A stretch of 44,805 nucleotides of DNA from Oscillibacter sp. (GTDB lineage: Bacteria > Bacillota > Clostridia > Oscillospirales > Oscillospiraceae). The DNA is taken from positions 1 through 44,805 of the forward strand of contig JAFSRH010000001.1 in the NCBI GenBank assembly GCA_017446225.1, in the 5' to 3' direction. Shown piece by piece: positions 14,161-44,805 of this stretch. Numbering within the stretch: the first letter of the stretch is position 1; every line of letters begins with the position of its first letter. The notes beneath the pieces were generated by a model that worked only from the letters and a program-made list of their open reading frames with translations, made no database searches and had not been told where the DNA came from. Position numbers and translations under genes: made by a program.

Positions 14161-14189
14161 TTGCAATCGCGTCACGGATATGTTATCAT
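14161..14189 (+). promoter_or_regulatory. Promoter of leader A (LRR surface protein)
   Basis: TTGCAA, 17-bp spacer, TATCAT, starting 9 bp after the MBL gene stop. Predicted start of transcription is near 14196. The twin promoter upstream of the prepilin is TTGCAT-N17-TATAAT. Confidence 0.8.
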
Positions 14190-14195
14190 GTGGCA

Positions 14196-14519
14196 TGGAA
14201 ACATAATAAAGGCGGCGGACCGCCGGGTATCCTACCCCCCGGCGGTCTTGCATAGAGTGCCCAAACCACTCAACACAGCGAGTAAATCGCACCGTAGCCC
14301 TATTATATCCGCGCGTCCGATTTTTTATCAAGGACAGATTGCGGAGAAAACAGGGTCTATGTGGTATGCCTTGATAAAAAGGCGGCGTTGAGTATGGAAC
14401 TCAACGCCGTTATTGTGTTTCCGGCGGTCCGGGACGGGAGCGCGGCGGGAGCCGTTCCGCCGTTCTCCCGGGACCGGCTGTCGGACACCTTCCACTTTAT
14501 GACACAGAAAGGGGTTGCT
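14196..14519 (+). ncRNA. Leader A: candidate riboswitch/attenuator before the LRR surface protein
   Basis: A 324-nt non-coding leader homologous to leader B at 44210-44613. Outer helix 14203-14208 with 14301-14306 (AUAAUA/UAUUAU) and inner helix 14212-14215 with 14292-14295 (GCGG/CCGU) enclose three hairpins: P2 14218-14227/14238-14247, P3 GAGUG/CACUC at 14255-14259/14267-14271, and P4 14278-14281/14287-14290. The linker AACACA (14272-14277) is identical in both copies. A 12-bp helix 14322-14333/14369-14380 follows, then the terminator-like hairpin. No known riboswitch class was recognised; folds are by eye. Confidence 0.7.
14384..14408 (+). terminator. Terminator-like hairpin inside leader A
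   Basis: Ten-bp stem GGCGTTGAGT / ACTCAACGCC with a 5-nt loop, followed by a weak T-rich tail (GTTATTGTGTTT). The 5' arm can alternatively pair with ACTCAAC at 14268-14274 in the P3-linker strand, so it may be conditional. Confidence 0.6.
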
Positions 14520-15632
14520 ATGAAGAAAAGACTGTTCCCTATGGTTCTGGTGTGCTGTATGCTGGCGGCGTGGCTGGCGGTCGGCGCAATGGCGGCGGAC
14601 AATGACGTGATAGCCAAAGGCGATTGCGGCGTGAGCGGTAATAGCGTACAATGGACCTTGTACAGCGATGGAAATTTAGCCATAACTGGAAAAGGAGTCA
14701 TGAAGACTTATTCAGTCTCTCTTTACTCAGACGGAAGTATAGGCTACCAGAATTATCCATGGTACGTATACAGGACTATGATCACATCTTTGAGCGTCAG
14801 TAACGGAGTAACGGGTATCGGGTCATATGCTTTTTGTGGACTTGACAATCTGACGGAAGCTACGCTGCCGAGTAGTGTTTTGACTATTGAGGCTGGGGTG
14901 TTTCGGAATTGTTCCAATTTGCGTAGTTTTTCTATCCCTGACAGTATTACCAGTATTGGAGCAGGGGCTTTCCGTAACTGCGACCGCCTGACAAAAATGC
15001 TGATTCCCCGCAATGTGATCAATATCGGCGCGAACGCGTTCCGCGCTTCCGAGATGTTGCAGAGCGTGACAATTCTTTCGGATATTGTGGCTATCAATGA
15101 CTCAGCATTTGCATACTGTATCGCATTAAAAGAAATCACAATTCCCGACAGTGTAGTGATCATTAGGGCAAATGCCTTTTTAGAATGCGCCGCGCTGAAG
15201 AATGTGTATTTCACCGGTTCGGAAAGCCTGTGGAAAGATATCACGATAAACGATGGGAATCAGCCTCTTGAAAACGCCAAGATCAACTTTGACACGTCCG
15301 TTGAGGCCACGTACCGCATTAACGCCCTTTCCATATCCGATACGGACGGAAACCCGCTGACGGCGATTCCGGGCGGTTCTTTCCTTGTGACGCTCTCCGT
15401 CACAAACCGCGCTTCCGGCGCAACGCCTATTGTCTTTCTCGCTTCCTATGACGTCCAAGGACAGTATCAGGGGCTGATGTATGTCACGCTCCGGGAACCC
15501 GTGGGCGGGACCGTGGAAGTCACGCTCCCCGTGGACAACTCCGGCGGGAAAATTGCCCGCTTCAAGGCCTTCGCGGTCAAGTCCTTCGCCGGTATGGAAA
15601 TGGCCGGGGACCCGGTTTCGTTCCCCGCGTAA
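14520..15632 (+). CDS. Secreted BspA-type leucine-rich-repeat protein
   Basis: Exported surface protein, 370 aa, with a signal peptide (MKKRLFPMVLVCCMLAAWLAVGAMA) cleaved near residue 25. A short beta-rich domain is followed by LRR_5 repeats of about 23 residues at roughly 85-245 (for example TEATLPSSVLTIEAGVFRNCSNL, then similar units). The last 100 residues form a separate beta domain also seen at the ends of the exported proteins at 22.5 and 24.4 kb. Such proteins often mediate adhesion. ATG at 14520 follows AAAGGGG by 6 nt; an upstream in-frame extension would run through the structured leader. The gene is read from leader A and ends in a strong terminator. Confidence 0.88.
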   Translation: MKKRLFPMVLVCCMLAAWLAVGAMAADNDVIAKGDCGVSGNSVQWTLYSDGNLAITGKGVMKTYSVSLYSDGSIGYQNYPWYVYRTMITSLSVSNGVTGIGSYAFCGLDNLTEATLPSSVLTIEAGVFRNCSNLRSFSIPDSITSIGAGAFRNCDRLTKMLIPRNVINIGANAFRASEMLQSVTILSDIVAINDSAFAYCIALKEITIPDSVVIIRANAFLECAALKNVYFTGSESLWKDITINDGNQPLENAKINFDTSVEATYRINALSISDTDGNPLTAIPGGSFLVTLSVTNRASGATPIVFLASYDVQGQYQGLMYVTLREPVGGTVEVTLPVDNSGGKIARFKAFAVKSFAGMEMAGDPVSFPA

Positions 15633-44174: not shown

Positions 44175-44203
44175 TTGCATTTTGTCGAAGAATGGGGTAT
44201 AAT
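44175..44203 (+). promoter_or_regulatory. Promoter of leader B (prepilin)
   Basis: TTGCAT, 17-bp spacer, TATAAT. Its spacer contains TGTCGAA (44183-44189), identical to a Spo0A half-box; this may be chance. Confidence 0.8.
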
Positions 44204-44209
44204 CAGGCT

Positions 44210-44613
44210 ACAGAACACATAGAGCGGCAGTCTTTGAAATGTTCGCACCATTCCAAAGACCTGTACTGAGTGGACGTTGTTAAGATAAGCACTCAACACA
44301 CCGGAGTTTTCCGGACCGCAGGGACTATTATACCCGTTTTTCCATATCTTTTGCAAGGCTCATTACCGTTTTTTTTCGGCGCCGTCGAGTTCGGGCGGCG
44401 GAAACTGACGGGGTTCATGGATGGGCCGCGCAAGAGGCGGGACTGCGTGGCGTGATAGGCTTTTGCGGCACGCTTTGATAGCCATATCAAGCGGCGTTGA
44501 GGTTCACTCAACGCCGCTTTTGTGTGTTCTGGCAGAGCCGCCGGAGGGAGCAGTGACGTATGCTTCCCTTCCGGGTCCGGCCTGTCAGATCATGCCAAAG
44601 GAGGCTATCAAAG
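44210..44613 (+). ncRNA. Leader B: second copy of the candidate riboswitch/attenuator
   Basis: Homologue of leader A. Outer helix AUAG/CUAU (44219-44222, 44325-44328) and inner GCGG/CCGC (44224-44227, 44316-44319) enclose P2 (44230-44236/44254-44260), P3 GAGUG/CACUC (44268-44272/44290-44294), the fixed linker AACACA (44295-44300) and P4 CCGGA/UCCGG (44301-44305/44310-44314). P2, P4 and the closing helices differ in sequence from leader A yet still pair. A longer variable section (44330-44480) precedes the terminator-like hairpin, and a further hairpin with GGGAGC...GCUUCCC precedes the prepilin ribosome site. Confidence 0.7.
44491..44521 (+). terminator. Terminator-like hairpin inside leader B
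   Basis: Eleven-bp perfect stem GCGGCGTTGAG / CTCAACGCCGC with a 5-nt loop, then TTTTGTGTG. The 5' arm GTTGAG could alternatively pair with CTCAAC at 44292-44297. Confidence 0.7.
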
Positions 44614-44805
44614 ATGAAGAAATGGAACAAAGGCGGCTTTACGCTTGCCGAGTTGCTCATCGTGGTGGCGATTATCGCCATTCTGGTGGCGATCGGCATT
44701 CCGGCCTTCTCCACGGCTATGGAGCGTTCGCGCGAAGCGGTGGACCTTGCCAACATGCGCGCCGCCTACGCGGAGTTCATGGCCGGTACGCTGGGGGATG
44801 ACTAC
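44614..44805 (+). CDS. Type IV prepilin-like protein (cut by window end)
   Basis: The first 64 residues are a classic type IV pilin or pseudopilin N-terminus: a short basic leader MKKWNKGG, prepilin-peptidase cleavage after the second Gly, then FTLAELLIVVAIIAILVAIGIPAF with Glu at position 5 of the mature protein. The following helix continues STAMERSREAVDLANMRAAY. AAAGGAGG is 8 nt before the ATG. The rest of the gene lies beyond the window, so major pilin and minor pseudopilin cannot be told apart. It is read through structured leader B. Confidence 0.92.
   Translation, partial: MKKWNKGGFTLAELLIVVAIIAILVAIGIPAFSTAMERSREAVDLANMRAAYAEFMAGTLGDDY

Follow-up and report, generated by a model that had tools for sequence, protein, structure and literature searches.

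The window analysed here, a stretch of 44,805 nucleotides from an Oscillibacter sp. contig, carries the same compact element in the leaders of two genes, one coding for a secreted leucine-rich-repeat protein and the other for a prepilin-like protein, and it may be asked what kind of RNA this element encodes, on which strand it is encoded and how it could act on the genes that follow. The first-pass annotation had read it on the coding strand, as a junction with conserved single-stranded linkers forming a ligand-binding aptamer. Our comparison of sequences and predicted folds instead favours, with a probability of roughly 84 %, the view that each copy is a cis-encoded antisense-RNA transcription attenuator, belonging to a multi-copy chromosomal family.

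Two leaders and their relatives

Both leader copies, A and B, were located by sequence where the annotation had placed them. The inner GCGG/CCGY helix, the three hairpins, the AACACA linker and CUAUUAUA are all found in both, and the differences between A and B preserve pairing, confirming the compensatory changes noticed earlier. The window contains two matches to a pattern combining the linker and CUAUUAUA, and 100 shuffles gave none; the sense strand of both copies out-folds its shuffles (z -3.9 and -2.5). In copy A the feature extends beyond the junction first described, as far as the attenuator terminator (Table 1). The proposed outer helix (14203-14208/14301-14306) did not hold up: all 6 bp could form in 19 of 168 unique loci, and reversing the left half as a control still gave 18; the 3' half is in fact a promoter -10 box belonging to the other strand. 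An alternative outer helix drawn by RNAalifold (helix 1) was paired in only 57 % of cells and was omitted from the refined model.

The annotation had expected the element to recur ahead of surface and pilus genes, to covary strongly and to match nothing in Rfam, and this was borne out. Further homologues proved abundant in covariance-model searches of the genus, family, order, class and phylum, for which a first model (R1), a refined model (R2) and an antisense-strand model built from 50 sequences (R3) were available. The genome from which the window comes holds 3 copies by exact pattern, 7 with R1 and 8 with R2 and R3. With R1 (E <= 0.01), 36 of 61 genomes of the genus were positive, with up to 13 copies in one, as were 79 of 300 genomes of the family, from 41 of 106 genera. 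With R2 (E <= 0.001), and counting the own genome each time, 34 of 245 genomes sampled from the order carried the element, as did 11 of 291 from the class (10 of 291 with R3) and 5 of 299 from the phylum. The eighth own-genome copy (G000:C38:3107-3237) is weak with the sense model at 35.4 bits and clear with the antisense model at 51.4 bits. At another locus (L235:292-422) a second element lies about 1.2 kb upstream of the first, scoring 38.1 bits with the sense and 38.2 bits with the antisense model. A pattern scan of contigs matched at least 116 stretches; L007 and L037 are true members by R2 amongst the first 100 loci, L114 is also true amongst the other 16, and the remaining 15 were judged by the P3 test alone. 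The named public records amongst the true members are uncultured Oscillospiraceae MAGs (L007, L037), and similarity would place the window near these.

As the annotation had supposed, the element matches no known Rfam family: no Rfam 15 family reached its gathering cut-off on either strand of the whole window, and none did so on either strand of 20 loci with homologues. Relaxing the cmscan threshold to E 5 for the two leaders gave weak matches to unrelated families only, with no ctRNA family among them; a weak RAGATH-25 match (E 0.97) overlaps P4 of copy B. The ctRNA_pT181 model (RF00242) had no match in the own genome, and control genomes were equally without a match. A tRNA-like gene, considered for the cloverleaf resemblance, was rejected as ARAGORN called 0 genes in the window, and a plasmid search with one distant member as query returned no matches. 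No account of this RNA family was found in searches of the open-access literature. PMC8040213 is a microbiome survey presenting thousands of candidate structured RNAs; names beginning with Oscillospir- and the name Ruminococcaceae are absent from its main text, and its tables may hold an entry. To judge from these searches, the element appears to be undescribed.

Strand of the conserved structure and a facing promoter

Covariation within the family is extensive, with 29 of 32 modelled pairs varying on both sides and none of 500 shuffles reaching the covariation score. Pairs of P2, P3 and P4 top the list of covarying columns in an alignment of 98 of the 103 matches, from which near-duplicates had been removed. 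One of the sets drawn on comprised 100 sources, without L037, L178 and L200 and without the places repeated at L002, L003, L005 and L122. Covariation by itself is silent on the strand; the count of A.C against G.U tells it, for an A.C mismatch becomes a G.U pair in the complementary strand, so that an excess of A.C in the sense reading points to pairing kept on the antisense strand. In the sense reading, the P2-P4 stems fill 2408 cells, with 2177 Watson-Crick pairs, 166 A.C, 22 G.U and 43 mismatches of other kinds; A.C outnumbers G.U at 15 stem pairs and is outnumbered at 3. In contrast, 87 terminator hairpins, which are sense-only, hold 221 G.U and 4 A.C, the latter count being biased low since the terminator finder takes G.U and at most one mismatch.

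Consensus folding agrees with this asymmetry. For 50 loci, RNAalifold built a complete four-way junction on the antisense strand, with 30 pairs at -39.2 kcal/mol and double changes in 22 of them, whereas on the sense strand of the same loci it returned P2 and part of P4 only (15 pairs, -20.5 kcal/mol). Part of the difference between 30 and 15 pairs stems from a misaligned P3 in the sense alignment, which had been made independently of the antisense one. Counted within the antisense alignment, 29 of these 30 pairs give 1172 Watson-Crick pairs, 223 G.U, 10 A.C and 29 others. The structure labelled A6 is an antisense-strand prediction, and the stem pairs used for covariation and A.C counts were predicted on the sense strand, the inner P1 pairs being added by hand; the same strand bias is obtained from both the sense-derived and the antisense-derived stem sets. 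In single-sequence folds, the antisense strand is the more stable in 172 of 172 unique elements, with a mean advantage over 166 loci of 11.9 kcal/mol against 6.0 in shuffles, so that about half of the advantage reflects base composition. Taken individually, copy A folds no better than its own shuffles on the antisense strand (z -1.2; sense strand z -2.9), and the antisense fold of copy B has z -3.0. The pairing is thus not kept on the sense strand, as it would be in a riboswitch. Judged from these comparisons, the element is a real structured RNA, but its conserved structure sits on the minus, not the plus, strand.

The region that the first-pass annotation had taken for a conserved single-stranded linker, CUAUUAUA, is likewise better read from the other side, as a promoter -10 box in reverse. 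When 129 unique windows were aligned on ATTATA, a second conserved block, TTTTNCAAG, appeared, with weak conservation between the two blocks (at most 1.0 bits at the -35 edge and 0.8 elsewhere). On the opposite strand the blocks read CTTGNAAAA, a spacer and TATAAT, which by its sequence is a standard, near-consensus promoter of the sigma-A type lying inside the leader; CUAUUAUA and CAAG together are this promoter. The -10 served as the anchor of the alignment and the -35 is therefore the independent part of the evidence: of 166 unique loci, 163 carry a -35 TTG at a distance of 16-18 nt (7 at 16, 136 at 17 and 20 at 18), 3 have no TTG at those spacings, and 4 more matches have no -10 match at all.

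From this promoter an antisense RNA of about 105 nt is predicted, the complement of the leader's initial ~105 nt, ordered as P1, P4, P3, P2 and the closing P1 strand, followed by a U-rich tail such as CCGCAAUUUAUGUUUCC in locus L154. Its 3' end is U-rich after a hairpin, though not a textbook terminator in every copy. AACACA is present as annotated, but the simple role of a single-stranded linker is not supported: its complement UGUGUU pairs below P3 in the antisense consensus fold, as one strand of the helix there, and AACACA itself belongs to the antiterminator strand described below. With its four-way junction and variable loops L2 and L3, the modelled molecule would have the make-up of a structured antisense RNA with recognition loops. 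The possibility that the minus-strand transcript is simply the leader of a divergent upstream gene was rejected, upstream genes being co-directional in 36, divergent in 21 and unclear in 36 of 93 cases. Long plus-strand ORFs terminate just upstream of both window copies.

Table 1. Positions in the window of the features assigned to leader copies A and B
Copy	Feature	Position	Strand	Support
A	mRNA promoter, -35 TTGCAA 14161-14166, -10 TATCAT 14184-14189	14161..14189	+	
A	Predicted antisense RNA, four-way junction (P1, P4, P3, P2) and U-rich 3' tail	14192..14296	-	R3 73.5 bits (copy is among the 50 training sequences)
A	Leader 5' end, complementary to terminator tail	14197..14215	+	
A	Hairpin P2 with loop L2	14217..14247	-	consensus fold
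A	Hairpin P3 and its 7-nt loop L3, proposed to serve in recognition	14255..14271	-	fold and loop comparison
A	Antiterminator strand CACUCAACACA (P3 3' strand and linker)	14267..14277	+	7 bp with terminator 5' arm, MFE
A	Hairpin P4	14278..14290	-	consensus fold
A	Antisense promoter, -10 TATAAT 14302-14307, -35 TTGATA 14326-14331, 18-nt spacer	14302..14331	-	
A	Attenuator terminator hairpin and U-rich tail	14381..14422	+	
A	Gene presumed to be controlled, secreted BspA-type leucine-rich-repeat protein	14520..15632	+	Pfam LRR_5 E 2.3e-37
B	mRNA promoter, -35 TTGCAT 44175-44180, -10 TATAAT 44198-44203	44175..44203	+	
B	Predicted antisense RNA, four-way junction and U-rich 3' tail	44206..44320	-	R3 75.0 bits (copy is among the 50 training sequences)
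B	Antiterminator strand CACUCAACACA	44290..44300	+	8 bp with terminator 5' arm, MFE
B	Antisense promoter, -10 TATAAT 44327-44332, -35 TTGCAA 44351-44356, 18-nt spacer	44327..44356	-	
B	Attenuator terminator hairpin and U-rich tail	44489..44531	+	
B	Gene presumed to be controlled, prepilin-like protein, truncated at the end of the window	44614..44805	+	Pfam N_methyl E 5.5e-07

Leader, terminator and the proposed switch

The leader itself follows a forward promoter of the TTGCAA-17-TATAAT type, which ends about 4 nt before the element, has a 17-nt spacer in 121 of 134 loci and scores on average 11.7 in these loci as compared with 8.3 for the next stretch upstream. An intrinsic terminator was called downstream in 96 of 103 matches, at a median of 51 nt past the element; the range of -14 to 165 includes a few mis-picks, and some of the 96 calls (for example at L177, L209 and L215) probably miss the terminator of the family. 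Amongst the 7 matches without a call, 5 had at most 112 nt of sequence downstream, and at L212 and L219 there was enough but none was called.

The 5' arm of this terminator tracks the P3 strand of its own copy, with GUGUUGAG accompanying CACUCAACACA, GGUGCUGAG or GGUGUUGAG accompanying CACUCAGCACA, GUGUAGG accompanying CACCUACACA and UGUAUGGG accompanying CACCAUACACA. Over the 96 of 103 matches, pairing of the arm with its own P3 strand and AACACA amounts to -12.2 kcal/mol, compared with -9.9 on permutation (0 of 5000 as good), and pairing of the leader 5' end with the base and tail of its own terminator 3' arm amounts to -22.6 kcal/mol, compared with -16.7 (0 of 5000, 96 copies), the relatedness of the copies being left uncorrected in both permutations. 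The terminator region hence looks like the antisense RNA twice over, once in the P3 strand and once in the 3' tail. When leaders were folded up to the terminator loop, an antiterminator helix of at least 5 bp belonged to the MFE structure of 69 of the 96, both window copies among them, and was missing from it in 27, including L007, L190 and L208. Between leader and gene there is an intrinsic terminator, and the target of the predicted antisense RNA contains the antiterminator that excludes it. The helix between leader and tail needs a finished tail, and may therefore act after the termination decision.

In the mechanism that we propose, transcription from the forward promoter would yield the mRNA leader, and the opposite-strand promoter within it would yield the four-way-junction antisense RNA. 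In a leader left alone, the P3 3' strand with AACACA would capture the terminator 5' arm, so that the antiterminator forms and the polymerase reads through into the gene. The antisense RNA would pair with the leader, a process probably begun by contacts of the loops L2 and L3, and would occupy the antiterminator strand, whereupon the terminator would form and transcription would stop early. Sequence analysis shows the anatomy, the opposite-strand promoter, the structured strand and the complementarity between terminator and leader; that the antisense RNA is made, that it acts in the OFF direction and that recognition runs through the loops is what we infer. Past the attenuator terminator, a second GC-rich hairpin can be seen by eye (window ~14418-14490 and 44525-44590; loci L007 and L114), often starting with UUUCCGGC and closing before the ribosome-binding site, which may perhaps serve mRNA stability or compete with the leader-tail pairing.

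If copies within one genome are to act separately, it is the loops that could keep them apart. L3 has a length of 7 nt in 56 of 82 copies and is distinct among the fetched copies within each of 14 genomes (82 copies in total, the minus-strand echoes L207:1555 and L203:476 left out; some of the genomes have more copies than were fetched). Pairs of copies with stems at least 90 % identical (24 within and 20 between genomes, with unequal loop lengths set aside) were compared loop by loop. Within genomes, identity is 0.43 for L3 (n=19) and 0.45 for L2 (n=16), as against 0.74 for the promoter spacer (n=19) and 0.97 for L4 (n=18); between genomes the values are 0.72 (n=8), 0.82 (n=17), 0.81 (n=19) and 0.91 (n=11), respectively. 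At a threshold of 80 %, identical L3 loops occur in 0 of 33 pairs within and 4 of 35 pairs between genomes, a weak difference (p 0.16), and the collapse of identical copies in MAG assembly may affect such counts. The related copies L181:806-970, L187:1174-1341 and L190:806-973 illustrate near-identical stems with different L3. A U-turn-like YUNR on the 5' side of L2 is present in 34 of 82 antisense readings versus 10 of 82 sense readings. These observations suggest that L2 and L3 are private addresses and the copies insulated switches. According to PMC3753616, a set of engineered attenuators sharing one loop stayed orthogonal, so that loops alone may not set specificity.

Amongst the genes downstream, 119 of 163 (repeats removed) look secreted or membrane-bound at the N-terminus by a crude test; the same hydrophobicity rule, with another ORF caller, selects 12 of the window's 33 genes and 15 of 45 genes in nine clostridial loci (<=8 kb). 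The choice of downstream ORF was heuristic, and all but 20 genes were judged from their N-termini. Pfam matches for these 20 comprise LRR_5 (window gene, L007), N_methyl (window gene, L182), SLH, WG repeats, MCP, PDZ with Cu_amine_oxidN1, SymE (L252), serine recombinase (L258), NOV_C and OrfB_IS605 with Cas12f1-like TNB (L226), with DUF6809 and DUF6264 below cut-offs and no match in five. None of the 20 is a replication protein by Pfam, and membership in a plasmid-replication system is not indicated. SymE, recombinase, TnpB-like and DUF6809-like genes follow distant members (L252, L254-L256, L258, L261, L226), the serine recombinase at L261 standing after a SymE-like ORF, which suggests that the element also belongs to mobile elements. 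By eye, an integrase-like ORF lies downstream at L151. The copies at L181, L187 and L190 precede proteins of 55-56 aa with a CxxC pair, a proline-rich middle and an end of the form DKKH...WVR; the one tested of this group, from L181, has no Pfam match.

Competing explanations and known attenuators

Other explanations account for part of these observations. A sense leader acting as an aptamer for some ligand, with the terminator as its expression platform, would present a covarying junction and a mutually exclusive terminator and antiterminator in the manner of OFF riboswitches, and the many homologues ahead of secreted-protein genes could be accommodated as well. This riboswitch is nevertheless very improbable, as the supposed linker with CAAG is a promoter of the opposite strand, the stems tolerate A.C above G.U, which is wrong for a sense aptamer, and the sense strand yields half the pairs at the same loci. 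Moreover, L2 and L3 vary among near-identical copies of one genome, a variation for which a shared ligand pocket would have no need, and the distant members before recombinase, SymE and TnpB-like genes show no metabolic theme.

It is also unlikely, although somewhat less so, that an antisense RNA exists but regulates mainly by RNase III cleavage, by interference between facing promoters or in trans. The copy-specific complementarity between terminator and leader would be purposeless under these routes, and trans action in general sits poorly with L3 being distinct among the fetched copies of each genome; the arrangement itself permits all three, the facing -10 boxes of the window copies being separated by 112 and 123 nt and the RNAs being fully complementary. 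Up to 13 dispersed copies per genome, inverted repeats formed by leader start and terminator tail, and recombinases behind some distant members could bring to mind a MITE-like element working at the DNA level, the leader 5' end and terminator tail being its terminal inverted repeats. That account is hardly tenable: the end repeats differ between copies and match within a copy, which fits RNA pairing and not one shared transposase, and two promoters, terminators and covarying stems are all maintained.

The preferred reading, attenuation by a cis-encoded antisense RNA, has precedents in plasmids. The pT181 system controls plasmid copy number through a replication gene, with one antisense-target pair per plasmid. 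In the RNAIII-repR systems of pIP501, pAMbeta1 and pSM19035, an antisense RNA induces premature termination of the leader in Gram-positive bacteria, again as plasmid replication control, and the element here is likened to them by this mechanism. According to PMC4878617, the antiterminator of pT181 sequesters the terminator 5' arm and antisense binding, begun by loop-loop contact, frees it. The repC attenuator of this Staphylococcus aureus plasmid thus resembles the present family in an antisense RNA that matches the 5' portion of its leader by complementarity, in an antiterminator at the base of the sensing hairpin that captures the terminator 5' arm and in a loop-loop start of binding. Unlike pT181, the family is chromosomal or in mobile elements, reaches 13 copies per genome and stands mostly before secreted-protein genes, and it has a predicted four-way-junction antisense RNA and a second contact between leader 5' end and terminator tail. 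With OFF riboswitches that use a terminator platform it shares the terminator/antiterminator logic, but the proposed trigger is an antisense RNA rather than a ligand and the structure lies on the other strand.

It is about an even bet that the family is a natural self-insulating set of switches, which would have spread in Clostridia and beyond, perhaps from mobile elements, and been adopted to gate secreted and surface proteins singly. The loop of about 7 nt would then be a private address driven apart after duplication, and the terminator region a built-in mimic of the antisense RNA that competes for the same two leader sites. If so, the expression of surface genes in these bacteria would be decided by private antisense RNAs, and the family would supply hundreds of natural variants for learning what makes attenuator pairs independent. 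A man-made counterpart to such a natural set exists in the engineered pT181 chimeras, in which a changed recognition hairpin gave independent attenuators and, according to PMC3753616, the loop-loop chimeras all carry TTGGCG. This chimera loop is also present among the L2 loops here, in 4 antisense and 2 sense readings (n=82).
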